DNA of 64,000 nucleotides from Clostridium tyrobutyricum DSM 2637 = ATCC 25755 = JCM 11008 (GTDB lineage: Bacteria > Bacillota > Clostridia > Clostridiales > Clostridiaceae): NCBI RefSeq assembly GCF_000359585.1, contig NZ_APMH01000005.1, forward strand, positions 1 through 64,000. The letters run 5' to 3'. Below the pieces are notes generated by a model. It worked only from the letters and a program-made list of their open reading frames with translations, searched no databases and had not been told where the DNA came from. Below, one piece after another: positions 17,076 to 23,390 of this stretch. The position numbers were made by a program, and so were the translations under genes. Positions within the stretch are counted from its first letter, which is position 1. Each line of letters starts with the position of its first letter.

Positions 17076-17732
17076 ATGAGTATAATTCATAAAATTAATA
17101 GATTTATTGCTAAATGCAATGAAAGTAATTATAAAAAGAAAATAGTTGGATCATGTATAATTTTAATAGTATTTATTATTTTTCTAATCGTAGGATATAC
17201 TAACTCAAAACCTGCCAATGTGTCAAGTAATGAAGATATATTTAGACAGGAAGGGGTAAAAAACCAAAAAACTCAGGATAATAAAAGTTATGGTACTATA
17301 ACGGTATACATAAATGGTCAGGTTAAAAATCCTGGGGTGTATGAACTTAAGAATGACAGCAGAGTGGAAGATTTAGTTAAAATATCAGGTGGTTTTAAAG
17401 ATACTGCTGATACATACAGTTTAAATTTGGCAAAGAAGCTAAAGGATGAGGATTATATACATGTAGATGAAATAAAAAAAGATGGCGATGGTAAAAACAA
17501 TTCTAATAAAGATGAAAAACCTGGGTTAAATGATAATGGAACAGTAAATATAAATAAAGCATCGAAGGAAGAATTAAAGAGTATACCTGGAGTAGGGGAT
17601 GTAACAGCGGAAAATATAATAGAATATAGAGAACAAAATGGAGACTTTTCTTATATAGAAGATATAAAAAATGTAAATAGAATAGGGGATAAAACATTTG
17701 AAAAGTTGAAAGATAAAATAGATGTAAGATGA
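17076..17732 (+). CDS. comEA: ComEA-like DNA receptor
   Basis: Membrane-anchored double-stranded DNA receptor of natural transformation. The 218-residue protein has one N-terminal membrane helix (IVGSCIILIVFIIFLIVGY, residues ~24-42). An SLBB domain follows (ITVYINGQVKNPGVYEL, residues ~77-135), then a Lys/Asn-rich linker and a C-terminal helix-hairpin-helix pair (VNINKASKEELKSIPGVG, ADN-type, ~residues 158-218). TGGAGG precedes the ATG. It starts a block that ends in comEC and holA, but a 121-nt gap and a P-type ATPase-like gene come in between. Confidence 0.93.
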   Translation: MSIIHKINRFIAKCNESNYKKKIVGSCIILIVFIIFLIVGYTNSKPANVSSNEDIFRQEGVKNQKTQDNKSYGTITVYINGQVKNPGVYELKNDSRVEDLVKISGGFKDTADTYSLNLAKKLKDEDYIHVDEIKKDGDGKNNSNKDEKPGLNDNGTVNINKASKEELKSIPGVGDVTAENIIEYREQNGDFSYIEDIKNVNRIGDKTFEKLKDKIDVR

Positions 17733-17853
17733 GAAAAGAATTAGCAAAATATTTATAAAGTATTATAATTAATTTATAAAGTTGAAATAATTGAATACGA
17801 TACTTAATAAGTAATATATTATTGTGTCCTTTTTTATATGGGAGGTAAATTAT

Positions 17854-20454
17854 ATGGTTGAATGGTATGGTCAATCTTGGAGTCATATTATAAAAAAATT
17901 AGACAGCAACAGTTATTATGGACTCTATGATGAACAAATTGAACCTCATAGAAAAAAATACGGTAAAAATGAAATATTGATTCCTGAAACTAAAAGCTTT
18001 TTTTCTCTCATTATAATCCAATTAAAAGAGCCATGGGTTTTATACCTGCTGCTATCTATAGTATTGTCTATATATTTTAAATTATTTTGGGAAATGCTTG
18101 TAACTATTGTTATATTTTTGGTGAATGTAATGTGCATAGCCCTACAAAAATATAAAGATCAAAAAGATATCAAGGAACTCAAAAAAATGAATATGGGAAA
18201 TGCAAGGGTTATAAGGGGGGGAAGAACAATTAGAATCCCTTTAGAAGAACTTGTAGTAGGAGATATAGTCATAATTGGTTCAGGGGAGTCTGTACCTGCC
18301 GATATAAGAATAATTGAAGCAAATGATCTAAAGGTGGATGAATGTTCTGTTACAGGAGAAAGAGTTCTATCTGACAAATATTCACCTAAAATAGAAGACA
18401 AGGAGATATCTTTATCAGATATGAAGAATATTCTTTTTAAATCTTCAATAGTTGCTGGTGGAGATGCTACTGGAGTTGTAATAGCTGTTGGTATGAAAAC
18501 ACAAATATCTGATATAGTAAAATCTTTTTTAGAGCAGAAGCAAAATAAAAATTTCTTTAAATCTGTTATAAGCAGTATATTAAATATGTATATAAAATTT
18601 TTATTTATAGGAATTTTTATTTCTAATTTTTTGACCTATAATTGGAATAGAAATATTTTTCAGTTGATAAAACAGTTTGCCATTGTTTCAATTAGTTCAT
18701 TTCCAATAGGTTTTGTTATAATAATATATCTTATAAATAATATATTTTTAAAGAATATTGAAAAAAGCAATAATGTAAATTTTAAAGATTTGTCCAGTAT
18801 TGAAAAATTCTCAAAAGTAACTGTCATATGCGAAGATAAAGTAGGTGGATTTTCCAAAAAAAGGATGGATTTAAGCAAGGTATATGGAAACGATGGATTT
18901 ATTGATATTGATGAAGAAACACTTAAGGAAGATGGTGTTAGTGAAAATTTATATAGAATGTTGGATATAGGTCTTCTATGTAATGATACACAATTGGTCA
19001 ATGGAGAAATTGAAAATTCAAAAGATGATTTAACTGAAATAGCCCTTGTCAAATTTGCACAGCAGAATGGGATTTATAAAAGGAAGATTGAAAGGGAGCA
19101 TAGAAGAATATTTCAGATTTCATTTGATACTGATAGGAGAATTATGACTTCTGTCAATAAAATGGACAAGAACTATAGAGCAAGTGTAAAGGGAGCGGTT
19201 GATTCCATATTGGACAGATGTACCCATATAATGAAGAATGGAGTTGAGCTTGAAATAACCGAAGATGATATAAATGATATACGTACTGCAGATATAAGTA
19301 TGTCTAATGATTCACTAAATGTAGTAGGATTTGCATATAGAAATTTTAATTATGAACCAAGTCTTAAAGAAAATATAGAGAGCAATCTTGTATTTGTAGG
19401 CTTGATGGGATTCGATAATAAACTAAAAGATTTTGCAGAAGATTATGTGAAGAAGTCTGATGAATTATCTATAAAGCCCATTATAATTACGGAAGACAGC
19501 AAGTTGACTGCATTTGCAGTAGGTAGGAAGCTGGGGATTGTATCAAGACTTCAACAGATAATATCTGGAGTTGAAATAGATAATATGGATGAGGAAGAGT
19601 TTAATCGTATAGGAGAAAAAATAAATATATTTTCAAGAATTAGTTCAAAAAATAAAGTAGAAATTATTAAGGCATTAAAAAACTATGGATATATTACAGC
19701 TATAACAGGTTGGAAGTTAACTGATGTCCCAGCACTTAAAATATCCGATATAGGAATAACTAATAGTAGAAGCAATATAGTAAAAAGATTAAGTGATGTA
19801 TTTATTAAAGATATCGATTTTATGAATCTTTTGAAATTAATAGAAAGTTGTAGAAAGATAATGTCTGAAATGAGAAAAATTTTGATTTATTTGGCTAGTT
19901 GTAGTTTTGGTATAGCTGCTTTTTTAATTATAAATACAATTGCTGGAACTGTGAAAATAAATGAGGATTTATTTTTAAAATCTTCTATATTTAATATTTT
20001 TACTATGATTCTATCAACATTGGCACTTATATACCAACATGATGAAGAGAGTTCAGAATATATAAGTTATGTCATAAATAAGGATATTATAAAGAGTAAA
20101 ATTTCTTTTGTATGTTCAAGGGGAGTGCTTATGGCTGTATCGGCATTTATATCTTTTAAAATTTCTGAATTCCTAGGAAGTAAATTTTCATTGCAGATTC
20201 CTTTTCTGGTTTTAAATTTTTGTGCTGTATTTTTTGTATATAGTTTTTCAAATAATAATTTATTTAAAAATAAATTACCCAATATTATAGTAAGTATAAA
20301 TTTTATATTTCAAATATGCATAATTTTATTATGGACAAAATTTAGTGTAATTTTTGAAGCATCATATTGGATAATTGTATTTGTATTTGCAGCTATTTGG
20401 TTTGTATTGAGTTTAGTAAATAAGTTTGATAAAAAAGAATATTATATGGAATAG
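17854..20454 (+). CDS. P-type ATPase-like protein with degenerate catalytic motifs
   Basis: The 866-residue protein has the full layout of a P-II cation ATPase: N-terminal cytosolic segment, M1-M2, A domain (LVVGDIVIIGSGESVPADIR), M3-M4, P/N domains and about six C-terminal membrane segments. Key motifs are altered. DKTGTLT is replaced by DKVGGFS with the Asp kept at about residue 328; TGES is TGER at 167; TGDGVND is TGWKLTD at 618-624; the M4 PEGLP motif is SSFPIG; and the M6 Asp motif is missing. KGA in the N domain is kept. Seen: intact frame over 2.6 kb. Known: these residues are needed for phosphoryl transfer, Mg binding and ion coordination. Inferred: no ATP-driven transport; a scaffold or regulatory role. 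It sits between comEA and comEC. The ATG at 17854 follows GGAGGT. Confidence 0.85.
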   Translation: MVEWYGQSWSHIIKKLDSNSYYGLYDEQIEPHRKKYGKNEILIPETKSFFSLIIIQLKEPWVLYLLLSIVLSIYFKLFWEMLVTIVIFLVNVMCIALQKYKDQKDIKELKKMNMGNARVIRGGRTIRIPLEELVVGDIVIIGSGESVPADIRIIEANDLKVDECSVTGERVLSDKYSPKIEDKEISLSDMKNILFKSSIVAGGDATGVVIAVGMKTQISDIVKSFLEQKQNKNFFKSVISSILNMYIKFLFIGIFISNFLTYNWNRNIFQLIKQFAIVSISSFPIGFVIIIYLINNIFLKNIEKSNNVNFKDLSSIEKFSKVTVICEDKVGGFSKKRMDLSKVYGNDGFIDIDEETLKEDGVSENLYRMLDIGLLCNDTQLVNGEIENSKDDLTEIALVKFAQQNGIYKRKIEREHRRIFQISFDTDRRIMTSVNKMDKNYRASVKGAVDSILDRCTHIMKNGVELEITEDDINDIRTADISMSNDSLNVVGFAYRNFNYEPSLKENIESNLVFVGLMGFDNKLKDFAEDYVKKSDELSIKPIIITEDSKLTAFAVGRKLGIVSRLQQIISGVEIDNMDEEEFNRIGEKINIFSRISSKNKVEIIKALKNYGYITAITGWKLTDVPALKISDIGITNSRSNIVKRLSDVFIKDIDFMNLLKLIESCRKIMSEMRKILIYLASCSFGIAAFLIINTIAGTVKINEDLFLKSSIFNIFTMILSTLALIYQHDEESSEYISYVINKDIIKSKISFVCSRGVLMAVSAFISFKISEFLGSKFSLQIPFLVLNFCAVFFVYSFSNNNLFKNKLPNIIVSINFIFQICIILLWTKFSVIFEASYWIIVFVFAAIWFVLSLVNKFDKKEYYME

Positions 20455-20510
20455 CTTATGTTTATATATCAATTATTTGGTCAATACTTATAATCAAAGG
20501 GGTGTGGCCA

Positions 20511-22307
20511 ATGAAAAGACCATTGATATTTTATGCTATTTCTACAGCAGTAGGTTGCTTATGTGCCATGGAAATTTTAGAAAATTCCATTACCATATGT
20601 TCAACTATTGCTGTATTGTTTTTTATAATATATTTTACTACACTAGATAAAAAATTTTTTATCATAAATGCTGTTTTTTTCTCTTTGGCAGCCTTTAGCT
20701 TTTTGAATTATTTTAATTTTAATCCCGGATCTCATATAGATAAAATCAAATTATTAAATAAGAAAAACTATTATTTTATAGGAAGTATAAATGGTAGAAA
20801 AGTAATAGTCAATGGAAAAGTAGAAAAATTAAAAGAGGGTTCAAGCATAGAAGCCTATGGATCTTTTAAAAAAGATATGAATTTTACAAGAGGAATCATA
20901 GGAAATTATAAATTAGAGAAATATAAATTATTAAAAAGAGATATCATGTACTATTCTTATTCATATAAAAAACTTATATATAATAAATTCAAGAATATAA
21001 TTGGTGAGGACAGAACAGCTCTTATAATGGGCATATGCTATGGGGATGTCCATTACCTTACTCAAGAACAAAATCAGGAATTTCAAAAATTAGGAGTTAT
21101 ACATGCCGTTAGTGTATCAGGTTTTCATATGGCAATTATATATCAAGCTATAGAAGGAATATTTGGATTTAATATAGCTGTTTTATTTTCAATAATTTAT
21201 GTGATTTTTACTGGAATGTCTGCCGCTACAATGAGATCATTTATAATGATATTCATATATAAACTATCTAAAATATTTTTTAAGGAATATGATGGATTGT
21301 CATCTCTAAGCTTATCTGCAATTATACTAATTATGGCAAAACCATATTATATAGTTGATATAGGGTTTGGACTATCTTTTTTAGCAACTTTAGGTATACT
21401 TGTGTATTATAAAAAGCTTTCAAGAGTTTTATATATGATGCCTAAAAAATTAAATGAAAGCATAAGTTTGACTTTATCATCCCAAGTATTTTCACTTCCC
21501 TATGTTGCGTTTACAATTCAAAATTTCAGTTATGGATTTATGTTGGGAAATCTATTTTTACTTCCACTTTATTCTATACTTGTAGTACTCGGCAATATAG
21601 CACTTGTTGTTTCTTTTCTTAAACCAGTATTTAATATTATTGCAAAGCTGATTAATTTAGTGATCGAGGCCTCAGAAGGTGGAAGTTCAATAGTACTTAA
21701 ATTAACTCCGGAAATAGTATATTTAAATTATGAACAAGGTATTATAATGCTGCTGATCTATATTAGTTTTAAATTGTATAAAAGTGGATATAAGAAAATG
21801 AAATACATGCCTGCAGCACTTTTCATATTTATTGTATTACAAAGTTATAGCATCATAACAAAGGTTACCTTTCTAAATTTTCAAAGTGGTGAAGCAGTTA
21901 TATTAGATAGTAGAAATCAAAGAGTTATGATATGTAATTATGATTCCTATAATGGAAAATGGATAGTAAATATAAAAAAATATATGAACATAGATAAAGT
22001 TATAACTAACCCAGGGCAAAATTATAGATACATATTGAATAAAAACAGTTTTTTAAGTGTAAATTCAAGTGAAAAAAATAATAGTCTCATAGTTAAATTT
22101 CATAGATATAATAAAGAAAAATTTAATTTTATATTGAATGGGGAAACAGATTATGGAATTTCAAAAACAGATGATAATTCTTTAATTTACATACCCAAGG
22201 TAAAAATTAATGATTCATCTAAATATGAAGATCCTTTAGATAAGAGTATTACATATGGTATAATATTTAACAGATTGATTCCAATTGAAATGAGCGAAAA
22301 AAGGTGA
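20511..22307 (+). CDS. comEC: ComEC/Rec2-type DNA uptake channel with degenerate C-terminus
   Basis: Polytopic membrane channel for single-stranded DNA entry. The 598-residue protein has an N-terminal DUF4131-like region, then the competence domain with HAVSVSGFHMAIIY and about eight to ten membrane segments. Usual ComEC proteins end in a metallo-beta-lactamase domain (DVGQGDS, then HxHxDH). Here that region, from about residue 453, reads LNFQSGEAVILDSRNQRVM, has no metal-binding His motif and is short. Seen: conserved channel part, worn C-terminal domain. Inferred: nuclease function lost or supplied elsewhere. The ATG at 20511 follows AGGGGTG. It is 56 nt after the ATPase-like gene and 4 nt before holA. 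Confidence 0.88.
   Translation: MKRPLIFYAISTAVGCLCAMEILENSITICSTIAVLFFIIYFTTLDKKFFIINAVFFSLAAFSFLNYFNFNPGSHIDKIKLLNKKNYYFIGSINGRKVIVNGKVEKLKEGSSIEAYGSFKKDMNFTRGIIGNYKLEKYKLLKRDIMYYSYSYKKLIYNKFKNIIGEDRTALIMGICYGDVHYLTQEQNQEFQKLGVIHAVSVSGFHMAIIYQAIEGIFGFNIAVLFSIIYVIFTGMSAATMRSFIMIFIYKLSKIFFKEYDGLSSLSLSAIILIMAKPYYIVDIGFGLSFLATLGILVYYKKLSRVLYMMPKKLNESISLTLSSQVFSLPYVAFTIQNFSYGFMLGNLFLLPLYSILVVLGNIALVVSFLKPVFNIIAKLINLVIEASEGGSSIVLKLTPEIVYLNYEQGIIMLLIYISFKLYKSGYKKMKYMPAALFIFIVLQSYSIITKVTFLNFQSGEAVILDSRNQRVMICNYDSYNGKWIVNIKKYMNIDKVITNPGQNYRYILNKNSFLSVNSSEKNNSLIVKFHRYNKEKFNFILNGETDYGISKTDDNSLIYIPKVKINDSSKYEDPLDKSITYGIIFNRLIPIEMSEKR
22256..22264 (+). promoter_or_regulatory. Possible internal extended -10 promoter for holA
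   Basis: TGGTATAAT occurs inside the comEC 3' end, 47 nt before the holA start. It could give holA expression independent of the competence genes. Confidence 0.35.
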
Positions 22308-22311
22308 TAAC

Positions 22312-23355
22312 ATGATAGATTTATTTACATTTAAGGAAGATTTAAAAAAGAAGGATTTTAAGAATTGCTATGTATTTTGTGGGTCGGATGAAAATATTAT
22401 TCAAGAATGTGTAAAACTTATAGTAGACAGATTTATTAATCCTGACTTTTTAGATTTGAATTATATAAAATTTGATGGCAATTCAATGGATGGCTTTCAG
22501 CCTGTTATAAATGCCTGTCAAACACTCCCATTTATGAGTAATAAAAAAATTGTACTTGTATATAGAGCAAATTTCATCGGAAATGATTTACAAAATAAAA
22601 GTAAATTGTCCGGGGAAAAGGAATTTAATTATATACACAAGTATGTAAAGAAAGTTCCAGAACACTGTATATTGATAATGTATGAAGTTTTTAAAAGTAA
22701 AAGGGATAAGGTAAGTAAGAGAATATACAAGCTTGACAAAGATGTATGTGTAGTCAGAATAGATAAATTTAAAGGAAGACAACTTGAAAACAGGGTAGAG
22801 GAGATATTCAGCGAAAAAAATAAAGAAATAAAAAAATTTGAGTTGAGATTGTTTTGCAGTGTTATGGAAGATAATAATTTCAGTGTAATAAAAAATGAGG
22901 TGGAAAAGCTCTGCTGTTACACTTATGGAAGAGAGATAACCAAAGATGATATAAAAAAATTATTTTTAAAAACAAGTGATGATGATATATTTGATCTTGT
23001 AAATCCAATATCGAATAAAAAGATAAAAGAGTCATTGATTGTTTTAGATGAACTTATATATAAGGGAGTAAATATAAATTATATTTTGACTATGATAGAG
23101 AGGCAATTTAATCTGCTATTTAAAATGAAAAAGGCCCTTGAAGACAAGAAGGATAAGAAATACATAATGAATATGCTTAGAATGAAATCGGACTATGCTT
23201 ACAGTATAATGATGAGCCAGAGCAAAAAATTTACATTAAGACAGCTCAGACATGCTGTAGATCTTTGTATTAATTCAGAACAAAAAATTAAAAGTTCTAC
23301 AGTAGATCAAAAAACTGAAATAGAACTTCTAATAATAAATACAATTGCAGGATAA
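22312..23355 (+). CDS. holA: DNA polymerase III subunit delta
   Basis: Clamp-loader subunit that opens the beta clamp. The 347-residue protein has the AAA-like N-terminal part (FKNCYVFCGSDENIIQECVKLIVDRF), a clamp-contact region near LPFMSNKKIVLVY, and the C-terminal collar domain (ILTMIERQFNLLFKMKKALE). It starts 4 nt after comEC, with the ribosome site AAGGTGAT inside the comEC end. comEC-holA-rpsT is a standard Firmicutes order. Confidence 0.95.
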   Translation: MIDLFTFKEDLKKKDFKNCYVFCGSDENIIQECVKLIVDRFINPDFLDLNYIKFDGNSMDGFQPVINACQTLPFMSNKKIVLVYRANFIGNDLQNKSKLSGEKEFNYIHKYVKKVPEHCILIMYEVFKSKRDKVSKRIYKLDKDVCVVRIDKFKGRQLENRVEEIFSEKNKEIKKFELRLFCSVMEDNNFSVIKNEVEKLCCYTYGREITKDDIKKLFLKTSDDDIFDLVNPISNKKIKESLIVLDELIYKGVNINYILTMIERQFNLLFKMKKALEDKKDKKYIMNMLRMKSDYAYSIMMSQSKKFTLRQLRHAVDLCINSEQKIKSSTVDQKTEIELLIINTIAG

Positions 23356-23390
23356 ATAAATAACCGGTAGATACCGGTTTATTTATTAAG
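23352..23390. terminator. Bidirectional terminator between holA and rpsT
   Basis: AATAAATAACCGGT and ACCGGTTTATTTATT pair around the loop AGAT with one bulge. Both flanks are AT-rich, and the two genes converge here. Confidence 0.8.

Follow-up and report, generated by a model that had tools for sequence, protein, structure and literature searches.

A putative P-type ATPase pseudoenzyme encoded in front of comEC in Clostridiaceae

In the 64,000-nucleotide stretch of Clostridium tyrobutyricum DNA that was analysed (the window), the forward-strand gene at positions 17854..20454 encodes a pseudo-P-type ATPase of 866 aa, as judged from its single open frame, HMM searches, orthologues and the fold predicted by AlphaFold. 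Sequence comparisons suggest that the protein belongs to an old family forming one clade, which has lost the catalytic residues of its relatives and is kept for a role other than pumping. As a matter of gene order, the link between this gene and comEC is strongly supported. Gene linkage and a correlation of evolutionary distances point to ComEC as the partner of the protein, a proposal in which we have moderate confidence only.

Results

The frame at 17854-20454 (+) comprises 866 codons plus stop and is unbroken, and a Shine-Dalgarno-like GGGAGGT (17840..17846, +), read in the sequence, lies 7 nt 5' of the ATG. In the HMM search, the protein scored 143 bits against TIGR01494 (cut-off 62.3), and the best specific model, TIGR01522 for PMR1-type Ca pumps, gave 313.6 bits, below its cut-off of 798.3. 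Domains above curated cut-offs together with the full fold place it by homology in the P-type ATPase superfamily, and the curated cut-off of TIGR01522 leaves it outside the P2A Ca2+-ATPases. The closest solved structure was that of the Listeria Ca2+-ATPase LMCA1 (6zhf, E 7e-88), and by HMM and best solved relative the protein is of the P2A (Ca2+-ATPase-like) type. The frame, the HMMs and this relative confirm the unbroken 866-codon frame with P-type ATPase layout that an earlier note on this DNA had described. NCBIfam cut-offs would name the protein 'HAD-IC family P-type ATPase', a label which masks that it is probably no pump. All 13 genomes of the genus carry the gene; the 12 other proteins are 53-65% identical to that of the window and have no internal stop.

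An AlphaFold2 model built with 56 aligned family members (pLDDT 87.2, pTM 0.83) predicted a full P-type fold in which about ten long helices would cross the membrane, and P-type ATPases matched it over nearly the whole chain. The lowest rmsd values, 3.2-3.3 Å over 843-853 residues, were obtained with the SERCA structures 2oa0, 8owa, 4ycm and 5zmv, two of which are titled E2, and the rmsd to LMCA1 in E1-Ca was 8.5 Å; we base no claim about the conformational state on these values.

The motifs of active pumps are replaced along the whole protein. In the A domain, VTGER (18349..18363, +; TGER, residues 167-170) stands where active pumps have TGES; SFPIGFV (18697..18717, +; residues 282-288) replaces the M4 AIPEGLP of the active paralogues; CEDKVGGF (18829..18852, +; DKVGG, residues 328-332) replaces CSDKTGTL and alters the phosphorylation motif; and TEDSKLT (19489..19509, +) replaces TGDHKxT, with Gly changed to Glu or Asp in 98/104 aligned homologues. 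Further on, TGWKLTD (19705..19725, +; residues 618-624) replaces TGDGVND with loss of the first Asp, and NIFTMILS (19993..20016, +; NIFTM against NLITD, residues 714-718) replaces the M6 NLITDSFP with loss of the cation-site Asp. At the two motifs that mark catalytic members, DKTGT and TGDGxND, the window protein thus reads DKVGG and TGWKLTD. By SERCA numbering, the first Asp of TGDGxND corresponds to a Mg2+ site. Three further P-type ATPases encoded in the same genome, 27-30% identical to the pseudo-ATPase, have intact motifs; the losses therefore do not characterise the organism as a whole.

The same pattern extended to the family. Among 104 aligned homologues, the Asp of DKTGT was kept in 57 and its first Thr in 3, the Gly of TGD in 1, the first and second Asp of TGDGxND in 20 and 92, respectively, and the Glu of TGES in 71; of the acidic cation-site residues, the M4 Glu was found in 5/104 and the M6 Asp in 0/104. 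At least three of eight key residues were missing in 104/104 proteins and at least four in 103/104. One homologue (L073) has all three P-domain Asp residues, but is without the DKTGT Thr, the TGD Gly and the M6 Asp. No intact pump was found at this locus among the 104 aligned proteins, or by a text match to DKTGT among 80 named loci and 10 further loci. The sole text match to TGDG came from L190; in L016 (genome G002), whose contig is equally long, the orthologue carries its TGDG within the A domain (SSVVTGDGTGV).

These counts bear on what the earlier note had read from the single protein. Its changes of DKTGT to DKVGG and TGD to TGW and the absence of PEGLP and of the M6 acidic motif were all seen in the window protein. 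The change of TGES to TGER is likewise real there and fails as a family trait, three congeners having TGES. The Asp of DKTGT and the KGA motif (VKGA, residues 445-448) are retained as it had stated, but the Asp is present in only 57/104 homologues, so its presence in the window protein says little. None of the 104 aligned homologues had intact catalytic motifs, an outcome that left the note's proposal of a kept pseudoenzyme unrefuted. Given established P-type ATPase chemistry, the losses, as read from the alignment, rule out the usual phosphorylation cycle; absence of all activity is a prediction from sequence. Part of the ATP pocket is retained, with Glu or Asp at the E442-like site in 104/104 and Lys or Arg at the K515-like site in 89/104, and nucleotide binding by the family is therefore still possible.

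To compare constraint between the pseudo-ATPases and active pumps, we counted positions conserved at 85% or more, a threshold of our own choosing, in the 104 pseudo-ATPases and in 18 active paralogues from one genus. In M3-M10 (288 residues), a membrane part so divergent that its alignment is less certain, there were 0 such positions in the pseudo-ATPases versus 76 in the active proteins; the later P domain had 13 versus 73, the A domain 26 versus 49 and the N domain 35 versus 34. Mean identity, calculated for 30 pseudo and 6 active representatives, was 0.43 and 0.38, respectively, in the N domain, and 0.17 and 0.45 in M5-M10. The pseudo-ATPases have 30 newly fixed positions, of which 21 fall at 346-522 (hypergeometric 3e-9) and none in M3-M10. 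The alignment delimits here a family-specific conserved segment at the N domain and hinge, AYRNFNYEPSLKENIESNLVFVG (19333..19401, +), and the family signature is YRxFxYxP...ENxESN, its first part occurring in 99/104 and its second in 96/104 pseudo-ATPases, both in 0/18 active proteins. The comparison indicates that constraint has moved from the membrane part and the P domain to the A and N domains, a shift which suggests that the protein works through its cytoplasmic A and N domains and is anchored by its membrane part. It also bears on an unconventional transporter or channel that would move its substrate without the usual phosphorylation cycle. The retained hydrophobic segments and the full fold with its predicted membrane helices speak for such a protein, but a membrane part with no position at 85% conservation and an M6 Asp in none of the 104 proteins make this reading improbable.

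Selection on the gene was estimated from 18 within-genus pairs that are 64-97% identical, and dN/dS ranged from 0.07 to 0.24, as compared with 0.11-0.20 for comEC and a tighter 0.02-0.14 for holA; the single pair that included the window protein gave 0.23 at a dS of 1.07. With these values and single open frames, the neutral decay that the earlier note had allowed for was not seen, and its proposal that the frame is kept for something other than transport held: loss of catalytic residues combined with purifying selection points, by sequence, to a pseudoenzyme under selection and not to a decaying pump. A decaying transporter gene would account for catalytic residues that are lost differently in different lineages, and 10 of 70 strong family matches run past a stop, yet in each of these loci a single frame of 804 aa or more persists; the frame is open in all 13 genus genomes, dN/dS is low and new motifs have been fixed in nearly the whole family, so that we regard decay as very improbable indeed.

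In a protein tree, one branch with an SH-aLRT of 100 divided 43 pseudo-ATPases from 18 active proteins; the method was a quick one, and it flagged two long branches as well as several rows whose composition is odd. When presence and absence of the ATPase were mapped on a tree of comEC-holA from 89 loci (FastTree, midpoint root), 11 changes were required, of which one may stem from a mislabelled locus (L165), and absences were nested among presences, with roughly ten lineages having comEC and no ATPase. The simplest reading, which is not proven, is one early gain followed by about ten losses.

The distribution of the gene was determined among 206 family genomes, 67 of which were left uninspected at the locus, and the gene was found in 114. 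In 111 of these 114, and in 33/46 genus codes, it stands upstream of comEC on the same strand, no more than 0.7 kb away, a total made up of 69/70 loci with strong matches, 34/34 comEC loci and 8/10 signature loci. The strong matches came from the 70 family genomes matching at E <= 1e-125, one locus each including the window; comEC follows 3' on the same strand at less than 0.7 kb in 69, the exception (L070) being a contig end, and at one locus (L069) comEC is itself cut by a contig end. comEC was detected in 200/206 genomes, and 60 comEC loci were sampled from those in which the ATPase search had given no strong match: a divergent homologue precedes comEC in 34 and none was found in 26, including L165, a contig edge whose gene sits at the end of another contig. 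Ten loci were chosen by signature, and the gene precedes comEC in eight; another is a contig end (L291), and in the last (L290, genome G063) it adjoins holA, with comEC on a separate contig. An assembly or binning error is possible in G063, since this metagenome-assembled genome is a draft of 88% completeness.

The distribution was checked independently by a search with a degenerate codon pattern for ENxESNLV, which matched 96/206 family genomes. Of the 86 among them with a listed comEC position, 83 have the signature codons 0.9-1.7 kb before comEC and on its strand; two exceptions come from split assemblies, in which the match is on another contig, and the third (G163) looks like a chance match, since the homologue of that genome lies before comEC elsewhere. 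In the class, 11/391 genomes matched, all among 19 of the same family, leaving 0/372 outside it, where divergent forms could be missed because the pattern is exact. In a collection of named strains that included C. ljungdahlii, C. ragsdalei, C. drakei, C. magnum and C. tetanomorphum, the gene precedes comEC in 77 of the 80 loci kept; the sequence available for the other three lacks comEC, two being contig ends and one having 4 kb downstream. These 80 were not added to the 111/114 because the set is overlapping and signature-selected.

In the window, the neighbours are comEA (17076..17732, +; HMM), comEC (20502..22307, +), which has the Competence domain only and no HxHxDH metal site, and the gene at 22312..23355 (+), next after comEC, which had no family call and which we take to be holA (DNA polymerase III delta). 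The likely true start of comEC is the ATG at 20511, because AAGGGGTG, an apparent ribosome site, overlaps the GTG at 20502. The gap between the pseudo-ATPase gene and comEC is 48 bp. A terminator-like hairpin lies just after holA (23362..23379, +; 3 sites found, 1.0 expected in shuffles); one more such site lies inside the end of holA, and from comEA up to where holA begins none is listed. Promoter-like sites were no more frequent than in shuffles (62 against 56.5); one of them lies in the gap between comEA and the ATPase gene.

The earlier note had placed the gene in a DNA-uptake block between comEA and comEC, and its link to comEC stood whereas that to comEA did not: comEA lies within 250 bp in only 5/70 and 2/34 loci, and elsewhere is 0.45-2.9 kb from the ATPase gene or absent from the approximately 3 kb fetched. 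The conserved neighbours are comEC-holA, and it is by its place next to comEC (111/114), not by one next to comEA, that the gene would be a candidate member of the comE operon. ComEA as a partner was not borne out by the gene order of relatives. By eye, other genes, for example aminotransferase-like and permease-like ones, stand between comEA and the ATPase gene at L123, L125 and other loci.

ComEC itself was also inspected. HxHxDH was found in none of the ComEC proteins listed, with and without the ATPase alike, so that domain loss in ComEC was not supported as the reason for the ATPase. The C-terminal part of ComEC looks by eye like a metallo-beta-lactamase remnant (NFQSGEAVILD). In many relatives (for example L128, L127, L098 and L113), though not in the window, a conserved small ORF of about 80-105 aa with the consensus ML-NIFET--GSNT-FL-IPE-DYF... 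precedes comEC and has its end close to the comEC start or overlapping it, whether or not the ATPase is present, so that it often separates the two genes; it gave no Pfam match (two examples) and no NCBIfam match (one example), and the genome of the window holds no convincing copy (best E 0.175). Four loci of genus code g6 without the ATPase (L133, L134, L135 and L137) have an ORF of 184-201 aa 0.5-0.8 kb before comEC, at the place expected for the ATPase gene. As regards competence of the host, its genome contains T2SSE-type and DprA-family genes.

To relate the evolution of the ATPase to that of its neighbours, partial distance correlations were calculated over 66 loci, and they were 0.54 for ATPase and comEC given holA and 0.35 for ATPase and holA given comEC, both beyond 2000/2000 permutations. 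The ATPase could instead be a pseudoenzyme retained for a separate role, such as sensing nucleotides or a metal at the membrane or assisting replication together with HolA, its place before comEC being only inherited operon order, which the conservation of the comEC-holA order itself would allow. The correlation with holA, a gene under tighter selection, counts against a role with ComEC, as do the 26 of 60 sampled comEC loci without a homologue upstream and the gene of G063 beside holA with no comEC on the contig; the partly retained ATP pocket would also suit a separate role. Against it, distances track comEC more than holA, and the upstream neighbours differ among the 18 loci read while comEC stays next. 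We consider a separate role possible and somewhat doubtful.

Discussion

P-type ATPases have been described as pumps and as flippases. In the explanation that we prefer, the gene of a P2A-type ATPase would have reached its place before comEC-holA at an early stage of the Clostridiaceae. Its catalytic and cation sites would then have disappeared, partly at the base of the clade and partly in separate lineages, and the protein would have been retained for another role. It would be held in the membrane by some ten anchoring helices and would neither form a phosphoenzyme nor transport an ion, while the A and N domains would expose a conserved cytoplasmic surface (YRxFxYxP...ENxESN) on which a partner docks. 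This partner would most likely be the ComEC channel, or else a cytosolic factor handling the incoming strand, and the pseudo-ATPase may thus scaffold or gate ComEC without catalysis, which is close to the conjecture of the earlier note that it may scaffold, gate or anchor the ComEA/ComEC machinery. Taken as a whole, the explanation of a membrane-anchored pseudoenzyme with this function seems to us evenly poised between right and wrong. Its more specific form, a dedicated non-catalytic subunit of the ComEC channel, with a motorless KdpB-like body and an N-domain signature that serves to dock either ComEC or the incoming strand, is put forward as a tentative possibility.

In a Bacillus-type comE locus, the homologues of comEA, comEC and holA stand in this order; the window has the same order with the pseudo-ATPase added, and its ComEC, unlike that of the Bacillus-type locus, is without a Lactamase_B domain. 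Silale et al. (2021; PMC8579336) state that almost half of ComEC proteins are without a nuclease-like domain and call the removal of the other strand in such organisms an open question. The loss of DUF4131 and Lactamase_B from the ComEC of Clostridiaceae is described in passages of Pimentel and Zhang (2018; PMC6299819), whose main text contains no occurrence of 'atpase'.

The nearest relatives of the pseudo-ATPase, LMCA1 (lmo0841) and other bacterial P2A Ca2+-ATPases, are homologous over nearly the whole length and share the overall fold. The active paralogues have DKTGT, TGDGVND and the M4 and M6 acidic residues, which the pseudo-ATPase family is without; the same motifs were seen in LMCA1 in the alignment, whereas the pseudo-ATPase has an N-domain signature of its own. 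TMEM94, presumably identical with ERMA, is likewise P-type ATPase-like, although a human protein and not a bacterial one, and we know of no link between it and DNA uptake. Passages of a 2025 structure paper, which reports that TGES is absent, argue against a phosphorylation cycle and against a P-type Mg2+ ATPase (PMC12134183), and a 2026 paper on ERMA defends the pump (PMC13322241), so the status of TMEM94 is disputed. In KdpFABC, as described in part of PMC9651954, the P-type ATPase subunit KdpB is joined to the channel-like subunit KdpA. This complex shows that there is a precedent for pairing a P-type protein with a channel protein distinct from it, but KdpB is catalytic, and a complex of the pseudo-ATPase with ComEC is at present a proposal.

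In open-licence literature, which excludes bioRxiv and most subscription journals, we found no description of a pseudo-ATPase beside comEC and none of a P-type ATPase pseudoenzyme. The relevant passages of a review of P-type ATPases (PMC10654040) mention no pseudoenzyme, and the P-type ATPase mentioned in an excerpt of a Micrococcus screen is a heavy-metal pump.

An old and widely kept bacterial pseudoenzyme would show that the P-type fold can be re-used without catalysis. The gene would also add a candidate component, so far unstudied, to the DNA uptake of Clostridiaceae, whose ComEC lacks the nuclease-like domain; if the pseudo-ATPase is indeed a subunit of the ComEC channel, it would be so in a family whose ComEC has lost both its DNA-binding and its nuclease-like domains.
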